Shown here: positions 50,054-61,960 of the stretch, piece after piece
How the letters are laid out: each line of letters opens with the position of its first letter
Position numbering within the stretch: the first letter of the stretch is position 1
NCBI RefSeq assembly: GCF_003614435.1
Contig: NZ_CP025546.1
Coordinates: 5,642,001 to 5,706,000 of the forward strand
Length of the DNA: 64,000 nt
Direction: 5' to 3'
DNA from: Mycobacterium paragordonae
Lineage (GTDB): Bacteria; Actinomycetota; Actinomycetes; Mycobacteriales; Mycobacteriaceae
Notes under the pieces: generated by a model
The model's input: the letters and a program-made list of their open reading frames with translations, nothing else
Told to the model about the DNA's origin: nothing
Database searches by the model: none
Made by a program: the position numbers and the translations under genes

Positions 50054-50827
50054 TCAGCCCTCCAGCGACGACAGGTTGAAGGCGACTCCGGTCGGATCGG
50101 CGGCCGCGGCCAGCCGCCCATACGGGGTGTCTTCCGCCTCGCGCAGCACCGCCCCACCGTTGTCGGTGATCACCTGCAGCGTCTTGTCGACATTTTCGGC
50201 GCCGAAGAAGATGTTCCACTGCGACGGCACGCCCTCGGGCAGGCATCCCGCTCCGTCCATCACGCCGAGTAATTGCTGATCGTCGAACCATGCTGTGGTG
50301 TAACGGAATTCGTCAGTGTCACTGACCTGCTCGGTGCGCCACCCGAACACCTCACGGTAGAAGTCGACGGCGGCGCGGTAGTCACGCGTGGTCAACTGGT
50401 GCCAGACCGGCGCGCCGGCCTCGCCTACAACCTCGAAGCCGCGGTGTTGCAGCGGTTGCCAGAGGCCGAAGGCGGCGCCGCTCGGGTCGGCCGCCGCCGC
50501 CATGAAGCCTTTGTCGGGAACCTCCATGGGCTGCAGGCAACCGGAGGCGCCGGCAGCGGTGACGGCCGAGACCGCCGCGGTGATGTCGGCGGTGTGGAAA
50601 TAAGTGGCCCAGTTGTCCGGAGCCTGCCACTCGGGATTGTTGGCCATCAGACCGGCGACGGCGCGGCCGTCCTTGGCCGCATTGATGTAGCCGCCGTAGT
50701 CGGGTCCGGCGGATTCGAACGTCCACCCGAAGACGGTGCCGTAGAAATCTTGGGCACGGTCAACGTCGGATGTGGTGAGGTCGATCCAGCAGGGGGCGCC
50801 GAGTGGGGCGTGGTCACGGATGGGCAC
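50054..50827 (-). CDS. two-domain VOC/glyoxalase protein (Rv0911-like)
   Basis: A 257-residue protein made of two VOC modules (residues 10-120 and 135-255). Each has the pattern W(I/H)xLTT..D...A..FY..VFGW followed by D-P-x-G-x-x-F. The modules are diverged tandem copies. The GTG at 50827 has AAGGTAAGGA 4 nt upstream. Family members include glyoxalase-like and antibiotic-resistance proteins; substrate unknown. An IS110-family element separates it from its usual neighbour Rv0910. Confidence 0.85.
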   Translation of the reverse strand: MPIRDHAPLGAPCWIDLTTSDVDRAQDFYGTVFGWTFESAGPDYGGYINAAKDGRAVAGLMANNPEWQAPDNWATYFHTADITAAVSAVTAAGASGCLQPMEVPDKGFMAAAADPSGAAFGLWQPLQHRGFEVVGEAGAPVWHQLTTRDYRAAVDFYREVFGWRTEQVSDTDEFRYTTAWFDDQQLLGVMDGAGCLPEGVPSQWNIFFGAENVDKTLQVITDNGGAVLREAEDTPYGRLAAAADPTGVAFNLSSLEG

Positions 50828-50859: not shown

Positions 50860-52320
50860 GCCCTTAGCTCTAGGCTTCGAATTGCCCAGGGACGTCGGGT
50901 ATGGCTTGCATGTGGTTGCTGTATTTGATGGCCGAGGAGGATTGGCCGCCCGTCGTCCCGCAACGACTCGACCGCTAATTGAGAGATGCGATTTGATCGC
51001 TGTGTAAGGACACGTCGGCGTGGTCGTCTGCTGGGTTGGTAGCGATGACAACGATCACGGAGGTGGCTGTGAGACAACAAGTCTGGGCCGGTGTTGACGC
51101 CGGTAAATCCGACCACCATTGCGTGGTCATAAACGTCGAAGGGATTCAGCTGCTGTCGCAACGCGTCGTTAACGACGAAACGGCGCTGCTGGATCTGATT
51201 GGAGCCGTGACGGCGCTGGCCGACGGCGGTGACATTACGTGGGCGATCGACCTCAACGCCGGCGGCGCCGCGTTGCTGATTACCTTGCTCATCGCCTCCG
51301 AGCAGCGGTTGCTCTACATTCCCGGCCGCACCGTCTACCACGCCTCGGCCGGCTATCGCGGCGACGGCAAAACCGACGCCAAAGACGCCGCCGTCATCGC
51401 CGACCAAGCCCGGATGCGCCGTGATCTGCAGCCGCTGCGGCCCGGCGATGACATCGCCGTCGAGCTGCGCATCCTTTCCAGCCGGCGCACCGATCTGGTC
51501 GCCGATCGAACCCGGGCGATCAACCGGCTGCGAGCCCAGCTGCTGGAATACTTCCCCGCTTTGGAGCGCGCCTTTGACTACAGCACCAGCAAGGCCGCAC
51601 TGATCCTGCTGACCGGCTACCAGACCCCCGACGGGCTGCGCCGCGCAGGCCCTGCCCGGCTGACGGCCTGGCTTGCTAAACGCAAGGCGCGCAACGCCTC
51701 TGCCGTCGCAGCCAAAGCCATCGAGGCCGCCAACGCCCAGCACAGCATCGTGCCTGGTCAAAACCTCGCCGCCACCATGATCGCCCGGCTGGCCAAGGAG
51801 GTGATGGCCCTCGACACCGAGATTGGCGCGACTGAGACGATGATCGAGGACCGATTTCGCCGCCACCGCCACGCCGAGATCATCGTGAGCATGCCCGGCT
51901 TCGGCGTCGTGCTCGGCGCCGAATTCCTCGCCGCCACCGGAGGCGAATTGAGCGCCTTCGACTCCGTCGACCGCCTGGCCGGCGTGTCCGGGCTGGCACC
52001 AGTACCGCGCGATTCCGGGCGCATCAGCGGCAACCGCAAACGCCCCCGCCGCTACGACCGTCGCCTGCTGCGCGCCTGCTATCTGTCCGCCCAGATCGCC
52101 ATCCGCACCGATACACCCTCGCGCAACTACTACGACCGCAAAAGATCCGAAGGCAAAACCCATACCCAAGCCGTCCTCGCCTTGGCCCGCCGACGCCTCA
52201 ACGTCCTCTGGGCCATGCTGCGCGACCATCGGCCCTATCAACCCACCGCGCCTAACACTGCGGCGGCTTGACAACTTCATTGAGATTCCTCCTTGGTCGG
52301 TGGGTACCTCGATATCGACT
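50860..52320 (+). mobile_element. IS110-family insertion element (bounds approximate)
   Basis: The 51045-52271 transposase and its flanks separate the Rv0911-like gene from the Rv0910/Rv0909-like pair. IS110 elements lack terminal inverted repeats, so the ends cannot be fixed by sight; 50860 and 52320 are guesses from where the flanking genes start and stop. Confidence 0.6.
51045..52271 (+). CDS. IS110-family DEDD transposase
   Basis: A 408-residue transposase. The N-terminal RuvC-like domain starts with VWAGVDAGKSDHHCVV (first Asp) and continues to DGKTDAKDAAVIAD (last acidic pair). The C-terminal transposase-20 domain carries IVSMPGFGVVLGAEFLA and the SGLAPVPRDSGRISGNRKR serine region. ATG 51045 is likely; a GTG near 51069 is possible. 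The frame is intact. Confidence 0.9.
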   Translation: MTTITEVAVRQQVWAGVDAGKSDHHCVVINVEGIQLLSQRVVNDETALLDLIGAVTALADGGDITWAIDLNAGGAALLITLLIASEQRLLYIPGRTVYHASAGYRGDGKTDAKDAAVIADQARMRRDLQPLRPGDDIAVELRILSSRRTDLVADRTRAINRLRAQLLEYFPALERAFDYSTSKAALILLTGYQTPDGLRRAGPARLTAWLAKRKARNASAVAAKAIEAANAQHSIVPGQNLAATMIARLAKEVMALDTEIGATETMIEDRFRRHRHAEIIVSMPGFGVVLGAEFLAATGGELSAFDSVDRLAGVSGLAPVPRDSGRISGNRKRPRRYDRRLLRACYLSAQIAIRTDTPSRNYYDRKRSEGKTHTQAVLALARRRLNVLWAMLRDHRPYQPTAPNTAAA

Positions 52321-52353
52321 CGGCACGCGCCGGAAAGTCATCGCCGATCAGTC

Positions 52354-52827
52354 TCAGCGACGCAGGACGCTGTCGCCGTTCGTCCCCGGGTCCGGGCGGG
52401 CGAACACCCTGACGAAGTTCTGCAGCGAGTCGCGGATATCGCTGCGCAGCGCGGCGGCGACGACCATGCCGATCGGCCCGAACAGCGCCGGCCCGCCGAG
52501 ATGCACGTCGAAGCTGACGACCGAACCCTGCTCTTTCGGAGCGACCTTGGCCATCAGTTTCACCTTGACCCCGCCCACACCGTCGCCGTTGAGGGTCATG
52601 CCCTCCGGGGGCTTGTAGCGCACGATCGTCCACCTGATGCGGTTGGGCATGCCCTTGACTTCGACATAGGACTCGATGACGGTGCCCTTTTCCAGCACGT
52701 CGGGCAACTTGCTGCGCCAGACCTTGTGGATGGTCAGCCATTCCCGGTACCGGTTCAGGTCGGAGGCGTGTGTCCAGGCCTGTTCCGGCGGCAGCGGCAC
52801 ATCGATGGATCCGGAGAGTTTCGCCAT
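52354..52827 (-). CDS. SRPBCC-fold protein, Rv0910-like toxin
   Basis: A 157-residue START/SRPBCC-like protein (MAKLSGSIDVPLPPEQAWTHASDLNRYREWLTIH). Such folds bind hydrophobic ligands. Rv0910 has been described as the toxin of a small toxin-antitoxin pair with Rv0909, as I recall. The ATG at 52827 lies 4 nt after the stop of the antitoxin-like gene. The IS110-family element lies directly downstream. Confidence 0.75.
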   Translation of the reverse strand: MAKLSGSIDVPLPPEQAWTHASDLNRYREWLTIHKVWRSKLPDVLEKGTVIESYVEVKGMPNRIRWTIVRYKPPEGMTLNGDGVGGVKVKLMAKVAPKEQGSVVSFDVHLGGPALFGPIGMVVAAALRSDIRDSLQNFVRVFARPDPGTNGDSVLRR

Positions 52828-53089: not shown

Positions 53090-56000
53090 CTACGGCACGC
53101 TGCCTTGCAGGAAGATCCCGGACAGGCGGTTGCCGATGTTGCCGACGCCGGAGATCAGGCCGGCTATCGCGATGTCCAGGCTGCTGGTGTTGCCGAAGCC
53201 GGACATAGCACTGCCGAGGTTGGTCAGGCCGGACAGTAGTTCGCCGCCGTAGTTCTCGAAGCCGGAGACATGCGAGCCGACGTTGAAGAGGCCGGAGATG
53301 GTGTCGCCGATGTTCCCGAAGCCGGATGTGCCGCCGGCGCCTGAGTTGAAGAAGCCCGACGACGGGGCGGTTGTCGAGTTGCCGATGCCGGTCATCGGGA
53401 GCAGGGAGGTGACCGGTACGGCGATCGGGCCGCTTCCCCCGGTGAGACCGATGGTGAGGAGTGTCGTATCGCTGCCAACGGTGAGGTTGAGCGGGATAGC
53501 CCCGAATTGGATTTGTGGCACTTGGATTGGGTCGAGCGCAGAGCGCAGCGGGATCGCCAAGCTGATGGGAAGGCCTGAGACCGGGACGTGGATATTCGGG
53601 AAGGGGTCGGGAAGCGGTATCACCAGGTCGAAGCCGTCGGTCTTGGCGTCGACCACGATGTCGAAGTTGACCGGAATCGCGCCGCCGTTGACGCCGTGAA
53701 TCGTGAACGGGTTGACGGTAAGCCCGGCGATGTTGCCGGTCACCGGCAGCTTGATCAGGGCGCCGCCGCCCAGGGTGAGGGGGATGTCGGGGATGGTCAG
53801 GGTGTAGTCGGCCGCGATCAGGCCCTGGCGGTCACCGCGCCACAACAATCCGTTGCTCTGATCACCGGAGATGAACGCCCCGGTGTCGAGGTTGCCGGTG
53901 TTGACCCACCCGGTGTTGGTGTCCCCGGTGTTGAAGCTGCCAGTGTTGACATCACCGGGGTTGGCCGACCCGGAATTGAAATCACCGGCATTGAACCCCC
54001 CGGTGTTGTAGCTGCCCGCATTGGCCCACCCGGTGTTGAACCCACCGGCGTTGAACACCCCGGTGTTCGCCACCCCGGAGTTCCCGATCCCGGAATTGAA
54101 CGACCCCGAGTTCCCGATCCCGTAATTCCCCGTCCCGGAATTGAAGAACCCGACATTCCCGGTCCCCGAGTTGAACAACCCCACATTCCCCGACCCCGAA
54201 TTCCACGCCCCGAACCCCACCTGATTATCACCGGTCAACCCGATACCCACATTGTTGCTACCCGAGTTCCCGAACCCGACATTGCCCACCCCGGTATTAC
54301 CCCACCCGATGTTCAGACTGCCGCTATTACCCCACCCCCGGTTCCCGACACCCGCATTACCGCCACCCACATTGACATCACCCAGATTGCCCCAGCCGTA
54401 ATTGCCGTCACCATGATTACCGGCCCCGACATTCCCCACACCCACATTGCCGCCACCCAGATTATGCCCACCCACATTCCCGCCACCCAGGTTGTAATCC
54501 CCCACATTCGCCAACCCCAGATTCCACCCACCACCATTGGCCACCCCCAGGTTGAACACCCGATCCACACCCGCACCCAACCCCGCCACCGCATTCGACC
54601 AGCCCGAGACCCCCTCACCCAAATTGAACACACCCGAACCCAACGCCCCCACATTCCCCACACCCGAGAACCCCACCACCCCCGACGACACATTCCACCA
54701 ACCCGAACCCCCACCCACATTCCCAAACCCCGACCCACTCCCAGACCCACTATTGAAAAACCCCGACGACGGCCCACCAGTGACATTGCCCAACCCCGGC
54801 CCCGCCACCAACCCCAACACCGGAACCACCAGCGGACCCAAGCCCGGACCGGAAATGTTCAGGTGCAGCCCCTCGCCGGGGCCGCCCACCAGCAGGCTCA
54901 GGGACGGACCGAGGATGACGATCGGATCTGTTCGGAGTGGTCCGATACTGCCGGTGATGCTGTTTCCGCCGCCGTTGGGATTGACCAGGTCGAGGGACGG
55001 GATGGTGAACGGGTCGATCACGATGTTGCCGAGGGCGCCGGTGATGGGGATGTTGAGGGGGATGGTGACGTCCAGGCCGATGGCGATGCGCGGGATGGTC
55101 AGGGTGTAGTCCAGCGCGGCCTGGCCCTGGTTGTCTCCGCGCCAGAAGAAGCCGTTGTTCAGATCGCCCTGGTTGAACCCGCCGGTGTTGAAGTCCCCGG
55201 TATTGGCCCACCCGGTGTTGTAATCCCCGGTATTGAAATCCCCGGTATTGACCTGCCCGGGATTGAACGACCCGGTATTGCCCACCCCCACGTTGAACCC
55301 ACCGGTGTTGTAACTGCCCGGATTCCCCACCCCGGTGTTAAGCACCCCGGCGTTGAACACCCCGGTATTGAGCCGGCCCGCATTGAACAACCCGACGTTG
55401 CCCTCCCCGGAATTACCGATCCCCCAGTTCCCCGACCCCGAATTGAACAACCCCACATTCCCGGTCCCCGAGTTGAACAACCCCACATTCCCCGACCCCG
55501 AATTCCACGCCCCGAACCCCACCTGATGATCACCGGTCAACCCGATACCCACGTTGTTGCTACCCGAGTTCCCGAACCCCACATTCCCCCACCCGCTATT
55601 ACCGAACCCGAAATTCGAGTCACCCTGATTACCCAACCCCACATTCAACGACCCCAGATTCGACCACCCCACATTATGGCCACCCACATTCCCCGACCCC
55701 AGATTGAAACTCCCCACACTGCCCAACCCCAGATTCCACGCGCCCTGATTTCCGAAACCAACATTCGCGTCACCGACATTGCCGGCACCCACATTCCACC
55801 CACCGACATCAGCGAACCCGACATTGCCCACACCCACACTTGCCAACCCCACACCCAGCACACCCGAGGGCCCCGCCCCCACCGACGCGGTATTGCTGAC
55901 CCCCGACAACGACCCACCCAGGTTCGACACCCCCGACAACAACCCACCCAGGTTCTTCACCCCCGAGACCATCGACCCGACATTGCCGTACCCGGAAACC

Positions 56001-59000
56001 ACCTGCCCGATATTCCCGAACCCCGACACCCCACCCGCACCGGAATTAAAGAACCCCGACGACGGCGCCACCGTCGCATTCCCCAACCCCGGCGCCGCAC
56101 CCACATGCAACAACTGCACCACCACCGGACCCGCACTCCCACCCACATTCACCGTCAACGGCGTCCCCACACCACCCACCACCAGGTTGTTGAACGCGAT
56201 GGTGTTTATCCGGATCGTCGGTGTTGTGATGGGCTGCAGGAAGTTGTTGGCGACGCCGATTTCCAGTCTGATCGGCAAGCCTGGGACGTCGACGCCGACA
56301 TGTCCGACCGGATCGGGAAGGCTGATACCGACATTGATGTTCGGGGTCTGCCCGAGCAGCGTTAGGTGGCCAACGACCGGGATGCCGCCGCCACCGACTC
56401 CGTGAATCCCGATCGGGTTGACGGTGAGTCCGGTGATGTTGCCGGTGATGGGGATGTTGAGGATGCCGCCGCCGGTCAGGGTCAGGGGGATGTCGGGGAT
56501 GGTCAGGGTGTAGTCGGCCGCGATCAGGCCCTGGCGGTCACCGCGCCACAACAATCCGTTGCTCTGATCACCGGAGATGAACGCCCCGGTGTCGAGGTTG
56601 CCGGTGTTGGCCCACCCGGTGTTGGTGTCCCCGGTGTTGAAGCTGCCAGTGTTGACATCACCGGGGTTGGCCGACCCGGAATTGAAATCACCGGCATTGA
56701 ACCCCCCGGTGTTGTAGCTGCCCGCATTGGCCCACCCGGTGTTGAACCCACCGGCGTTGAACACCCCGGTGTTCGCCACCCCGGAGTTCCCGATCCCGGA
56801 ATTGAACGACCCCGAGTTCCCGATCCCGTAATTCCCCGTCCCGGAATTGAAGAACCCGACATTCCCGGTCCCCGAGTTGAACAACCCCACATTCCCCGAC
56901 CCCGAATTCCACGCCCCGAACCCCACCTGATTATCACCGGTCAACCCGATACCCACATTGTTGCTACCCGAGTTCCCGAACCCGACATTGCCCACCCCGG
57001 TATTACCCCACCCGATGTTCAGACTGCCGCTATTACCCCACCCCCGGTTCCCGACACCCGCATTACCGCCACCCACATTGACATCACCCAGATTGCCCCA
57101 CCCGTAATTGCCGTCACCATGATTACCGGCCCCGACATTCCCCACACCCACATTGCCGCCACCCAGATTATGCCCACCCACATTCCCGCCACCCAGGTTG
57201 TAATCCCCCACATTCGCCAACCCCAGATTCCACCCACCACCATTGGCCACCCCCAGGTTGAACACCCGATCCACACCCGCACCCACCCCCGCCACCGCAT
57301 TCGACCAGCCCGAGACCCCCTCACCCAAATTGAACACACCCGAACCCAACGCCCCCACATTCCCCACACCCGAGAACCCCACCACCCCCGACGACACATT
57401 CCACCAACCCGAACCCCCACCCACATTCCCAAACCCCGACCCACTCCCAGACCCACTATTGAAAAACCCCGACGACGGCCCACCAGTGACATTGCCCAAC
57501 CCCGGCCCCGCCACCAACCCCAACACCGGAACCACCACCGGCCCCACCGCCGGACCCAACAAACTCAACCGCAACGACTGACCCGGACCACCCACCACCA
57601 AGTTCAACGACGGACCCGTCACCACAATCGAATCCACCACAATCGGACCGATGGTGGCGTCGAGGTTGTCGCCGTTCAGATGCAGCGCCGGGATCTGGAA
57701 TGAGTCGGTGACGATGTTGCCGAGGGCGCCGGTGATGGGGATGTTGAGGGGGATGGTGACGTCCAGGCCGATGGCGATGCGCGGGATGGTCAGGGTGTAG
57801 TCCAGTGCGGCCTGGCCCTGGCTGTCTCCGCGCCAGAAGAAGCCGTTGTTCAGATCGCCCTGGTTGAACCCGCCGGTGTTGAAGTCCCCGGTATTGGCCC
57901 ACCCAGTGTTGTAATCCCCAGTGTTGAAATCCCCGGTATTGACCTGCCCGGGATTGAACGACCCGGTATTGCCCACCCCCACGTTGAACCCACCGGTGTT
58001 GTAACTGCCCGGATTCCCCACCCCGGTGTTAAGCACCCCGGCGTTGAACACCCCGGTATTGAGCCGGCCCGCATTGAACAACCCGACGTTGCCCTCCCCG
58101 GAATTACCGATCCCCCAGTTCCCCGACCCCGAATTGAACAACCCCACATTCCCGGTCCCCGAGTTGAACAACCCCACATTCCCCGACCCCGAATTCCACG
58201 CCCCGAACCCCACCTGATGATCACCGGTCAACCCGATACCCACGTTGTTGCTACCCGAGTTCCCGAACCCCACATTCCCCCACCCGCTATTACCGAACCC
58301 GAAATTCGAGTCACCCTGATTACCCAACCCCACATTCAACGACCCCAGATTCGACCACCCCACATTATGGCCACCCACATTCCCCGACCCCAGATTGAAA
58401 CTCCCCACACTGCCCAACCCCAGATTCCACGCGCCCTGATTACCGAAACCAACATTCGCGTCACCGACATTGCCGGCACCCACATTCCACCCACCGACAT
58501 CAGCGAACCCGACATTGCCCACACCCACACTTGCCAACCCCGCACCCAGCACACCCGAGGGCCCCGCCCCCACCGACGCGGTATTGCTGACCCCCGATAA
58601 CGACCCACCCAGGTTCGACACCCCCGACAACAACCCACCCAGGTTCTTCACCCCCGAGACCATCGACCCGACATTGCCGTACCCGGAAACCACCTGCCCG
58701 ATATTCCCGAACCCCGACACCCCACCCGCACCGGAATTAAAGAACCCCGACGACGGCGCCACCGTCGCATTCCCCAACCCCGGCGCCGCACCCACATGCA
58801 ACAACTGCACCACCACCGGACCCGCACTCCCACCCACATTCACCGTCAACGGCGTCCCCACACCACCCACCACCAGGTTGTTCAGGACGATGGGATTGAC
58901 GGCGATTCTCGGCAGCGCGATGGAAGTCAACGTGTCGTCGATAGTGACGTGAAGATTCAACGGCAGCGGCGGTATCGGAATGGTGACCGATCCGAGTGGG

Positions 59001-61798
59001 TCGGGGAGGCCGACGCGGATATCGAGTCCACCGGTGTCGGCCCCCAGGACATTGATTCCGAGATTTACCGGGATTGCCGAACCGCCTTGGCCGTGTATCG
59101 AGAAAGACTCGATGGCCAATCCGGTGATGTTGCCGGTGATGGGGATGTTGAGGATGCCGCCGCCGGTCAGGGTCAGGGGGATGTCGGGGATGGTCAGGGT
59201 GTAGTCGGCCGCGATCAGGCCCTGGCGGTCACCGCGCCACAACAATCCGTTGCTCTGATCACCGGAGATGAACGCCCCGGTGTCGAGGTTGCCGGTGTTG
59301 GCCCACCCGGTGTTGGTGTCCCCGGTGTTGAAGCTGCCAGTGTTGACATCACCGGGGTTGGCCGACCCGGAATTGAAATCACCGGCATTGAACCCCCCGG
59401 TGTTGTAGCTGCCCGCATTGGCCCACCCGGTGTTGAACCCACCGGCGTTGAACACCCCGGTGTTCGCCACCCCGGAGTTCCCGATCCCGTAATTCCCCGT
59501 CCCGGAATTGAAGAACCCGACATTCCCGGTCCCCGAGTTGAACAACCCCACATTCCCCGACCCCGAATTCCACGCCCCGAACCCCACCTGATTATCACCG
59601 GTCAACCCGATACCCACATTGTTGCTACCCGAGTTCCCGAACCCGACATTGCCCACCCCGGTATTACCCCACCCGATGTTCAGACTGCCGCTATTACCCC
59701 ACCCCTGGTTCCCGACACCCGCATTACCGCCACCCACATTGACATCACCCAGATTGCCCCAGCCGTAATTGCCGTCACCATGATTACCGGCCCCGACATT
59801 CCCCACACCCACATTGCCGCCACCCAGATTATGCCCACCCACATTCCCGCCACCCAGGTTGTAATCCCCCACATTCGCCAACCCCAGATTCCACCCACCA
59901 CCATTGGCCACCCCCAGGTTGAACACCCGATCCACACCCGCACCCACCCCCGCCACCGCATTCGACCAGCCCGAGACCCCCTCACCCAAATTGAACACAC
60001 CCGAACCCAACGCCCCCACATTCCCCACACCCGAGAACCCCACCACCCCCGACGACACATTCCACCAACCCGAACCCCCACCCACATTCCCAAACCCCGA
60101 CCCACTCCCAGACCCACTATTGAAAAACCCCGACGACGGCCCACCAGTGACATTGCCCAACCCCGGCCCCGCCACCAACCCCAACACCGGAACCACCACC
60201 GGCCCCACCGCCGGACCCAACAAACTCAACCGCAACGATTGACCCGGACCACCCACCACCAAGTTCAACGACGGACCCGTCACCACAATCGAATCCACCA
60301 CAATCGGACCGACGGTCCCGCCCAGTTCCGAGCCATTGAGATGGAGGGTGGGAATGGTGAAGGACGGGATGGTGATGATCGGCTGGCCGTTCAATATGGA
60401 GCCGAGCGTCCCCGTCACCGGAATATTGATCGGCACGTCGACGTCGACCTGCAGGGCGATGCGCGGGATGGTGAAGGTCAGGTCGAATGCGGCTTGACCC
60501 TGGTTGTCTCCGCGCCAGAAGAAGCCGTTGTTCAGATCGCCCTGGTTGAACCCGCCGGTGTTGAAGTCCCCGGTATTGGCCCACCCGGTGTTGTAATCCC
60601 CAGTGTTGAAATCCCCGGTATTGACCTGCCCGGGATTGAACGACCCGGTATTGCCCACCCCCACGTTGAACCCACCGGTGTTGTAACTGCCCGGATTCCC
60701 CACCCCGGTGTTAAGCACCCCGGCGTTGAACACCCCGGTATTGAGCCGGCCCGCATTGAACAACCCGACGTTGCCCTCCCCGGAATTCCCGATCCCCCAG
60801 TTCCCCGACCCCGAATTGAACAACCCCACATTCCCGGTCCCCGAGTTGAACAACCCCACATTCCCCGACCCCGAATTCCACGCCCCGAACCCCACCTGAT
60901 GATCACCGGTCAACCCGAAACCCACATTGTTGCTACCCGAGTTCCCGAACCCCACATTCCCCCACCCGCTATTACCGAACCCGAAATTCGAGTCACCCTG
61001 ATTACCCAACCCCACATTCAACGACCCCAGATTCGACCACCCCACATTATGGCCACCCACATTCCCCGACCCCAGATTGAAACTCCCCACACTCCCCAAC
61101 CCCAGATTCCACACCCCACGATTACCGAAACCAACATTCGCATCACCGACATTGCCGGCACCCACATTGGAACCGCCCACGTTGGCCAGTCCCGCAGCGA
61201 GGATGCTGACGCGGCCCGGCGGGTCAGCGATTGCGGCTTGGGTGGACACGACGAAAGCCGAAACGGCCGCGGACGGGAGTCGCAGTAGTTCGGTGAACGG
61301 CGACAATGCCGACACCACGCCGGAGGCTTCGGCGTGGTAGCCGAACATAGCCGCGACGTCTTGCGCCCACATCTGCTCGTACTCGGCATCCACGGCCGCA
61401 ATCGCCGGGGCGTTCAACCCCAGCAGGTTGGAAGTCACCAGTGTCACCATTTGAGAGCGGTTTGCGATCACCGAAACCGGGTGAACTGACGCCGCCAGGG
61501 TCGCCTCGAACGCAGTTGCGGTCATGCGAGCCTGCCCGGCGGCCTGCTCCGCCAGCACACCCGTCGCGGCGAGCCAGTCCAGGTAGCGTCCGGCCACGTC
61601 GACCATCGCCGCCGAGGCTGCGCCCTGCCATGACGCGTTCGCCAACCCGGACGTCACCGCGGAAAACGCGGTCGCCGCCGAGCCCAGTTCGTCGGCCAGC
61701 ACATCCCAGGCGGCCGCAGCGGCAAGCAGCGGGCCAGGCCCCGCGCCGCCAAATATGCGCGCGGAGTTGATCTCTGGTGGCGACACCGCAAAATTCAT
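53090..61798 (-). CDS. giant PPE-MPTR protein with mosaic macro-repeats
   Basis: A 2,902-residue PPE protein. The PPE domain covers residues 1-180 ([25 protein letters not shown]). MPTR pentapeptides (NxGxGNxG type) follow to the end, with six non-repetitive beta-rich cassettes (LTIPxIxLxLxxxxxxxIPITGxxG...) between them. The repeat frames recur at about 2.68-kb spacing and are nearly identical in DNA, while the cassettes differ. The ATG at 61798 has an AGAGGCAG site and begins the PPE motif. It lies between the Rv0909-like gene and ctpE, where M. tuberculosis has no PPE gene as I recall. MPTR function is unknown; cell-surface antigen or porin-like roles have been proposed for relatives. Confidence 0.9.
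53781..54826 (-). repeat. PPE-MPTR macro-repeat A, copy 3
   Basis: About 1.05 kb nearly identical to the copies at 56480 and 59180. The encoded repeats include [23 protein letters not shown]. It ends where the skew flips near 54827. Confidence 0.85.
55090..56190 (-). repeat. PPE-MPTR macro-repeat B, copy 3
   Basis: Nearly identical to 57781-58880 at an offset of 2,691 bp. Confidence 0.85.
56480..57655 (-). repeat. PPE-MPTR macro-repeat A, copy 2
   Basis: Offset 2,706 bp from copy 3 and 2,661 bp from copy 1; the last difference includes a 30-bp indel (see findings). Confidence 0.85.
57781..58880 (-). repeat. PPE-MPTR macro-repeat B, copy 2
   Basis: Nearly identical to 55090-56190; a few silent-type differences such as GATAACGACC versus GACAACGACC are visible near 58600. 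Confidence 0.85.
59180..60310 (-). repeat. PPE-MPTR macro-repeat A, copy 1
   Basis: Lacks a 30-bp pair of pentapeptides ([10 protein letters not shown]) present in copies 2 and 3, near 59480. Confidence 0.85.
60490..61165 (-). repeat. PPE-MPTR macro-repeat B, copy 1 (shorter)
   Basis: Offset 2,682 bp from copy 2; it stops at about 61165, where the PPE domain begins. Confidence 0.8.
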
Positions 61799-61960
61799 CG
61801 CCGCTGCCTCTCTGGCAGGCGGCCTAGCCCGCGACCGCCCGCCGTTCACCCGCAAATGACGCCGCGGCAATTACCGCGGTTGCCCGACCGTCCTGAGCGG
61901 CTGAATGCGCGTCAGCTTACGCCCGATCCGGCTGGAATGGTGGACTTTATCAAATTCGAG

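Follow-up and report, generated by a model that had tools for sequence, protein, structure and literature searches.

Uniform pentapeptide-repeat frames around position-locked cassettes in a giant PPE-MPTR gene of Mycobacterium paragordonae: a probable case of intragenic gene conversion

PPE-MPTR proteins, which are secreted via ESX-5 and whose repeats may form a beta-helix, have already been described as carrying cassette duplications with divergent spacers (Warholm and Light, 2016; PMC4858275, here and below as far as the accessible part of that article goes). In that description, spacer sizes peak at about 100 and 220 amino acids, a conserved motif lies at the border between spacer and repeat, and the number of cassettes in group A proteins is four in M. 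bovis, five in M. tuberculosis and two or six in M. canettii (PMC4858275). The gene analysed here shares this layout, as large duplicated blocks of pentapeptide-2 repeats (frames in the following) alternate with less similar spacers that lack pentapeptides (cassettes in the following). Warholm and Light explain this arrangement by duplications in a fast-evolving family, using a set dominated by tuberculosis-causing species and trees of the PPE domain, and the histories of frames and spacers are unseparated in the accessible part of their article (PMC4858275). In contrast, the spacers of our gene are old positional counterparts of each other across species, and the frames appear homogenised within each species.

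A further process of relevance is gene conversion, which is reported to occur between pe/ppe genes of M. tuberculosis (PMC13396471, PMC12046097, PMC13061034, PMC3319526; each accessible in part). Like the process that we propose here, it consists of non-reciprocal exchange of similar sequences and includes intragenic events (PMC13396471, figure legend). In the accessible parts of these articles, it is studied within the species as a source of nucleotide diversity (PMC13396471, PMC12046097, PMC13061034), whereas our data concern a cross-species effect, namely homogenisation of frames around protected cassettes. In the literature searched, which was mostly openly accessible, we recognised no description of separate frame and cassette histories in PPE-MPTR genes (PMC1762029 and PMC3744410 mention both "concerted evolution" and "PPE").

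The gene lies on the minus strand of a 64,000-nucleotide stretch of the genome (the window) and forms a single open frame at 53090-61798, which codes for a PPE-MPTR protein of 2902 amino acids with the modules A1 B1 A2 B2 A3 B3 (ATG at 61798 taken as the start; the open frame reaches a TTG at 61870). In the host genome (7.2 Mb, five contigs), 86 matches to PPE were counted, of which one falls short of the family cut-off. Cutting the protein at the motif SSGFFNSG and at the WRGD region gives the order PPE-A1-B1-A2-B2-A3-B3-tail. Pfam assigns an N-terminal PPE domain (PF00823, E 6.3e-57) to residues 2-165 (61304-61795) and 43 stretches of Pentapeptide_2 (MPTR; PF01469, E 1.4e-227) to the whole protein, apart from which it reports a weak EspB_PPE match (E 0.15) overlying the PPE domain. 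The NCBIfam search of the protein returned no family, and the module profiles had no match among solved structures up to an E of 1.

Following the PPE domain on the minus strand, frame A1 (60509-61213, from identity profiles) consists of MPTR pentapeptides and is un-homogenised at its start beside the PPE domain. Cassette A1 (60137-60508) has its divergent core at about 60311-60490 and bears a position-1 insertion; frame B1 (59231-60136) leads to cassette B1 (58754-59230), with its core against B2 at about 58883-59119. Frame A2 (57827-58753) precedes cassette A2 (57476-57826), whose 3' part (below 57651 on the plus strand) is common to A1, and is followed by frame B2 (56540-57475), cassette B2 (56063-56539), frame A3 (55136-56062) and cassette A3 (54770-55135), which bears a position-3 insertion. 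After frame B3 (53834-54769), cassette B3 (53363-53833) has one residue fewer near its end, likewise in 7/7 six-module genes, and the C-terminal tail (53093-53362, by motif division) runs from the last SSGFFNSG motif onward. The A2, A3 and B frames rest on DNA identity to their other copies and the cassettes on identity windows, dS and indels (the junction in place of indels for A2; dS and indels for B3). Cassettes measure 117-124 and 157-159 amino acids, frames and cassettes alternate with a period of 1.3-1.4 kb, and the copies of the AB unit are separated by 2682-2706 bases (summed spacings), in line with the roughly 2.66-2.71 kb given by the first-pass annotation.

This annotation had also described the three A and three B blocks as nearly identical at the DNA level. 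We found 99.7-99.8% identity among the three B frames and 99.4% between A2 and A3; the exception is A1 with about 95% to A2 and A3, which is due to its first part, adjoining the PPE domain, being different. A 10-codon indel separates B1 from B2 and B3. The six divergent inserts listed there coincide with sharply bounded cassette cores, in which the DNA identity of 20-codon windows is down to about 40-67%, and the junction quoted is exact, as CACAATCGGACCG begins at 57638 and ATGGTGGCGTCGAGG at 57651; CACAATCGGACCG is present a second time at 60299. Within the gene, dS is 0.00-0.05 between frame copies versus 0.94-1.47 between cassettes, so that the possibility of cassettes being as identical as frames does not apply. 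Cassettes of the gene have a dN/dS of 0.34-0.69 among each other, synonymous and non-synonymous sites both differing, with many synonymous changes. Judged by the sequence, the gap in dS is far too large for amino-acid selection following a recent duplication, and it therefore points either to recent overwriting of the frames or to an outside origin of the cassettes. An assembly artefact is an unlikely cause of the pattern, since the gene lies inside a 6.73-Mb contig and the six modules recur in six further assemblies, each made up of one to three contigs; short-read polishing could overstate the identity of the frames.

Using the 5' part of the gene as query, 17 of 396 genomes of the genus matched at E <= 1e-75, including the window genome (G000). 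Eight genomes, G000 among them and one per species, were analysed in full; G098 was left out because a run of N breaks up its copy of the gene, and the eight other matching genomes are drafts with the match at or near a contig end, five of them judged by match coordinates alone. In the drafts G015 (L056), G240 (L064) and G144 (L065; match to the query 83%), the contig ends 40-269 bases past the match, as would be expected where short reads fail to bridge the frames. The locus is syntenic: in the other seven genomes the ATPase gene lies upstream (7/7) and the 154-aa ORF (7/7) and the glyoxalase gene (6/7) downstream, the latter without a match in the G026 stretch examined. In the window, an IS110-family transposase ORF (51036-52271, plus strand) lies between the 154-aa ORF (52277-52741) and the glyoxalase gene (50054-50827). 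The matches to these two genes are only a few bases apart in G006, G227 and G246, and the element is therefore probably an insertion in the window's lineage. Six modules are present in seven of the eight orthologues and four in G227, which we excluded from the position counts and report beside them. Its last two cassettes carry position-3 signatures, for B in agreement with the tree, as expected if the middle unit was lost.

Concerted evolution of repeated genes in bacteria was reportedly treated by Santoyo and Romero in 2005. In general usage, the term means that the copies within one genome are more alike than their orthologues. A difference to such cases is that the homogenised unit here is part of a coding module and alternates with segments that escape. 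The frames fit the definition, with the exception of the start of A1. Over 23 rows from 8 genomes, A and B frames each require 7 genome changes, the minimum; with the set restricted to the seven six-module genes there are 6 changes and 0/200 label shuffles reached a value as low, although these shuffles, here and below, ignore relatedness and their counts are not probabilities. Within the six-module genes, mean identity is 0.963 for A frames (lowest 0.889, in G006) and 0.986 for B frames (lowest 0.935; 21 pairs each); A frames are also at about 0.89-0.90 in G026 and G088, meaning that homogenisation is uneven. Between species, frames share 0.76 identity, alike for the same and for other positions, and between G000 and G006 the DNA identity is 82-87% whatever the pairing, with dS of 0.34-0.43. 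The cassette-like start of A1 in these two genomes (0.67 within the gene, 0.87 at the same position) is the exception to the grouping by genome. The earlier proposal that gene conversion keeps the frames uniform is thus supported by the perfect grouping by genome in eight genomes and by the frame dS of 0.34-0.43 to the nearest species.

The cassette cores, in contrast to the frames, keep their position across species. B-cassette cores show 2 position changes, the minimum, and whole B cassettes 6, both with 0/200 shuffles as low. A-cassette cores show 5 position changes (0/200), a position signal that appears only in these cores and in the indels, and core columns and indels were picked after the alignments had been viewed. 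Whole A cassettes lack the position grouping (12 changes; 191/200 shuffles as low or lower) and group by genome instead (8 changes; 0/200), since homogenisation extends into the cassette edges, as seen in the identity profiles. Three cassette indels occur in 7/7 of the six-module genes at their own position and in 0/14 elsewhere, and a fourth in 7/7 and 1/14 (A1 of G026). Between G000 and G006, cassettes have 85-94% DNA identity at the same position versus 57-80% at other positions; at the same position they exceed the frames (0.89-0.94 versus 0.82-0.87) except for B3 (0.847). Neither exchange of cassettes between positions nor from silent donors was seen, the cores being position-locked across species (one genome per species). 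The copies are older than the species split, as the position-specific indels are common to seven species. The recent amplification suggested in the first-pass annotation is not supported, because both the six-module layout and the position-specific cassettes are common to seven species.

With regard to constraint, cassettes at the same position have a dN/dS of 0.11-0.20 between G000 and G006 versus 0.29-0.31 for frames. More distant pairs give 0.22-0.52 versus 0.21-0.24 (G260/G185) and 0.20-0.42 versus 0.27-0.30 (G246/G185), and G000/G227 gives 0.31 and 0.48 versus 0.24-0.25 at position 1 only, as the signatures show that the cassettes compared in rows A2 and B2 of this pair do not correspond in position. 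No value exceeds 1 in any pair compared. As far as these alignments indicate, cassettes tend toward faster protein change than frames over longer times. The PPE part (61217-61798, residues 1-194) has a dS of 0.67 between G000 and G006, higher than frames (0.34-0.43) and cassettes (0.18-0.50).

Searching the whole genome with a cassette profile gave 55 matches at E <= 0.01, and those outside the window gene all fall into L001-L007. These seven are among 14 further PPE stretches of the genome in which we looked for a close cassette donor; none turned up, the top matches reaching only 71-84% over 33-113 bases. On the basis of these 14 stretches, we rejected the idea that another PPE-MPTR gene of the genome supplied the cassettes. 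A plasmid search with one cassette region returned a single record, from M. riyadhense, with 66 bases at 82%. The genome has three more giant PPE-MPTR genes, L001, L002 and L003, whose open frames measure 3374, 2849 and 3806 amino acids; here too, stretches of high frame identity lie beside divergent cassettes, to varying degrees: 0.97-1.00 between modules 2 and 5 of L002, 0.98-1.00 across nine 30-codon windows for one frame pair of L003, and up to 0.99 in single windows of L001. Most of their other frame pairs are well below these values, and in the L002 and L003 families, which the cross-species comparison covered, the frame pairs are mostly un-homogenised. Compared with G006, 6/6 cassettes match the same position in both the L002 (0.86-0.92) and the L003 family (0.84-0.93). 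G246 (0.70-0.77) and G088 (0.66-0.81) keep the order of the L002 family as well, but have an additional module in first place that offsets it by one; G227 was excluded from this family as it has a 523-aa frame only, and its L003 member has two usable modules. The window gene is the strongest case among those examined.

Base composition shows a pattern of its own along the gene. On the coding strand, the G skew of the B frames is +0.58 to +0.59 over the first 200 codons and +0.11 to +0.13 over the last 102-112, and the B cassettes are at -0.01 to -0.25. The first-pass annotation had located a change in skew at the borders of frames and cassettes; the skew does change along the gene, but the switch falls inside the frames. 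The opening part of the B frames (first 200 codons; 59231-60136 and equivalents) makes use of GGG/GGT and AAT and avoids C at third positions (0.20, against 0.43-0.61). An origin of the skew purely in the amino acids was ruled out, as this synonymous third-position bias contributes too. The same codons have a G skew of +0.33 to +0.70 in 8/8 orthologues and a third-position C of 0.10-0.27 in seven of them and 0.39 in G026.

Based on our data, the frames likely evolve in concert through intragenic gene conversion and surround cassettes that are old and locked in position. The product is one long PPE-MPTR protein in which the PPE domain, probably serving type VII (ESX-5) export, is followed by six pentapeptide-repeat frames that alternate in fixed order with six beta-rich cassettes. 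The AB unit would have been tripled prior to the split of the analysed species, with the cassettes later diverging into six position-specific versions. Since that time, the frames, which offer about 0.9-1.2 kb of similar DNA, would repeatedly overwrite one another in each genome by non-reciprocal homologous recombination. Conversion would enter the cassette edges and halt where similarity ends, so that the divergent cores protect themselves, and occasional recombination between frames would delete a whole unit, as G227 suggests. The frames may serve as a solenoid scaffold, and the conserved order of the cassettes suggests six distinct, non-interchangeable roles, e.g. distinct binding faces along the fibre. 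Homogenisation is read here from one genome per species, and gene conversion, most likely the molecular process, from its outcome rather than from directly observed events.

The first-pass annotation had instead seen the cassettes as being under diversification. In this view, they would be swapped or hypermutated for antigenic variation within recently amplified frames. The strong differences between the cassettes of the gene, which the frames lack, fit this idea, and so does the faster protein change of cassettes in three more distant pairs, where most cassette values of dN/dS exceed those of the frames. We nevertheless consider it very unlikely and see no support for diversification in the sense proposed: the cassettes keep their positional counterparts in other species, their synonymous sites differ too (dS about 1 within the gene), dN/dS to the nearest species is 0.11-0.20, and the 14 other PPE stretches hold no close donor. 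A further explanation would be that the frames are identical through strict constraint on the DNA, i.e. on codons or secondary structure, entirely without exchange. The strong third-position bias against C in the first 200 B-frame codons of most of the eight orthologues would be in line with such a constraint, which is hardly credible in view of a frame dS of 0.34-0.43 between nearest species versus 0.00-0.05 within the gene; synonymous sites can change, but do so together.

Homogenisation by repeated unequal crossing-over, with expansion and contraction of whole units in place of gene conversion, comes closer to the data, as the four modules of G227 with position-3 signatures in the last two cassettes look like the loss of one unit, and such unit turnover probably does happen. 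As the general cause it is unlikely, because exactly six modules are retained in 7/8 genes and cassettes would be duplicated along with the frames, whereas the most alike cassettes within one six-module gene reach 0.897 for A and 0.806 for B and none are near-identical. A different question is whether the homogenisation that we ascribe to gene conversion might itself be a selected property. In this case, the frames would be recombination-prone DNA, with a G-rich coding strand arising partly from synonymous choice, and the scaffold would be kept uniform, while the six non-interchangeable cassettes, whose skew is balanced, would evade homogenisation and keep a set functional sequence on a single fibre. 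We regard this extension as rather improbable, since the last third of the frames is nearly skew-free yet homogenised as well.

With only Pentapeptide_2 and PPE assigned by Pfam and no match to a solved structure, the cassettes clearly merit structural and functional study, and two more families of giant PPE-MPTR genes likewise retain their cassette order across species. For genes of this kind, tests for selection and comparisons of strains could give misleading results if frames and cassettes are not treated apart. PE/PPE repeats are often taken as engines of antigenic variation; in the gene described here, it is the segments of variable appearance that are stable and ordered, and the uniform repeats that appear to be rewritten.
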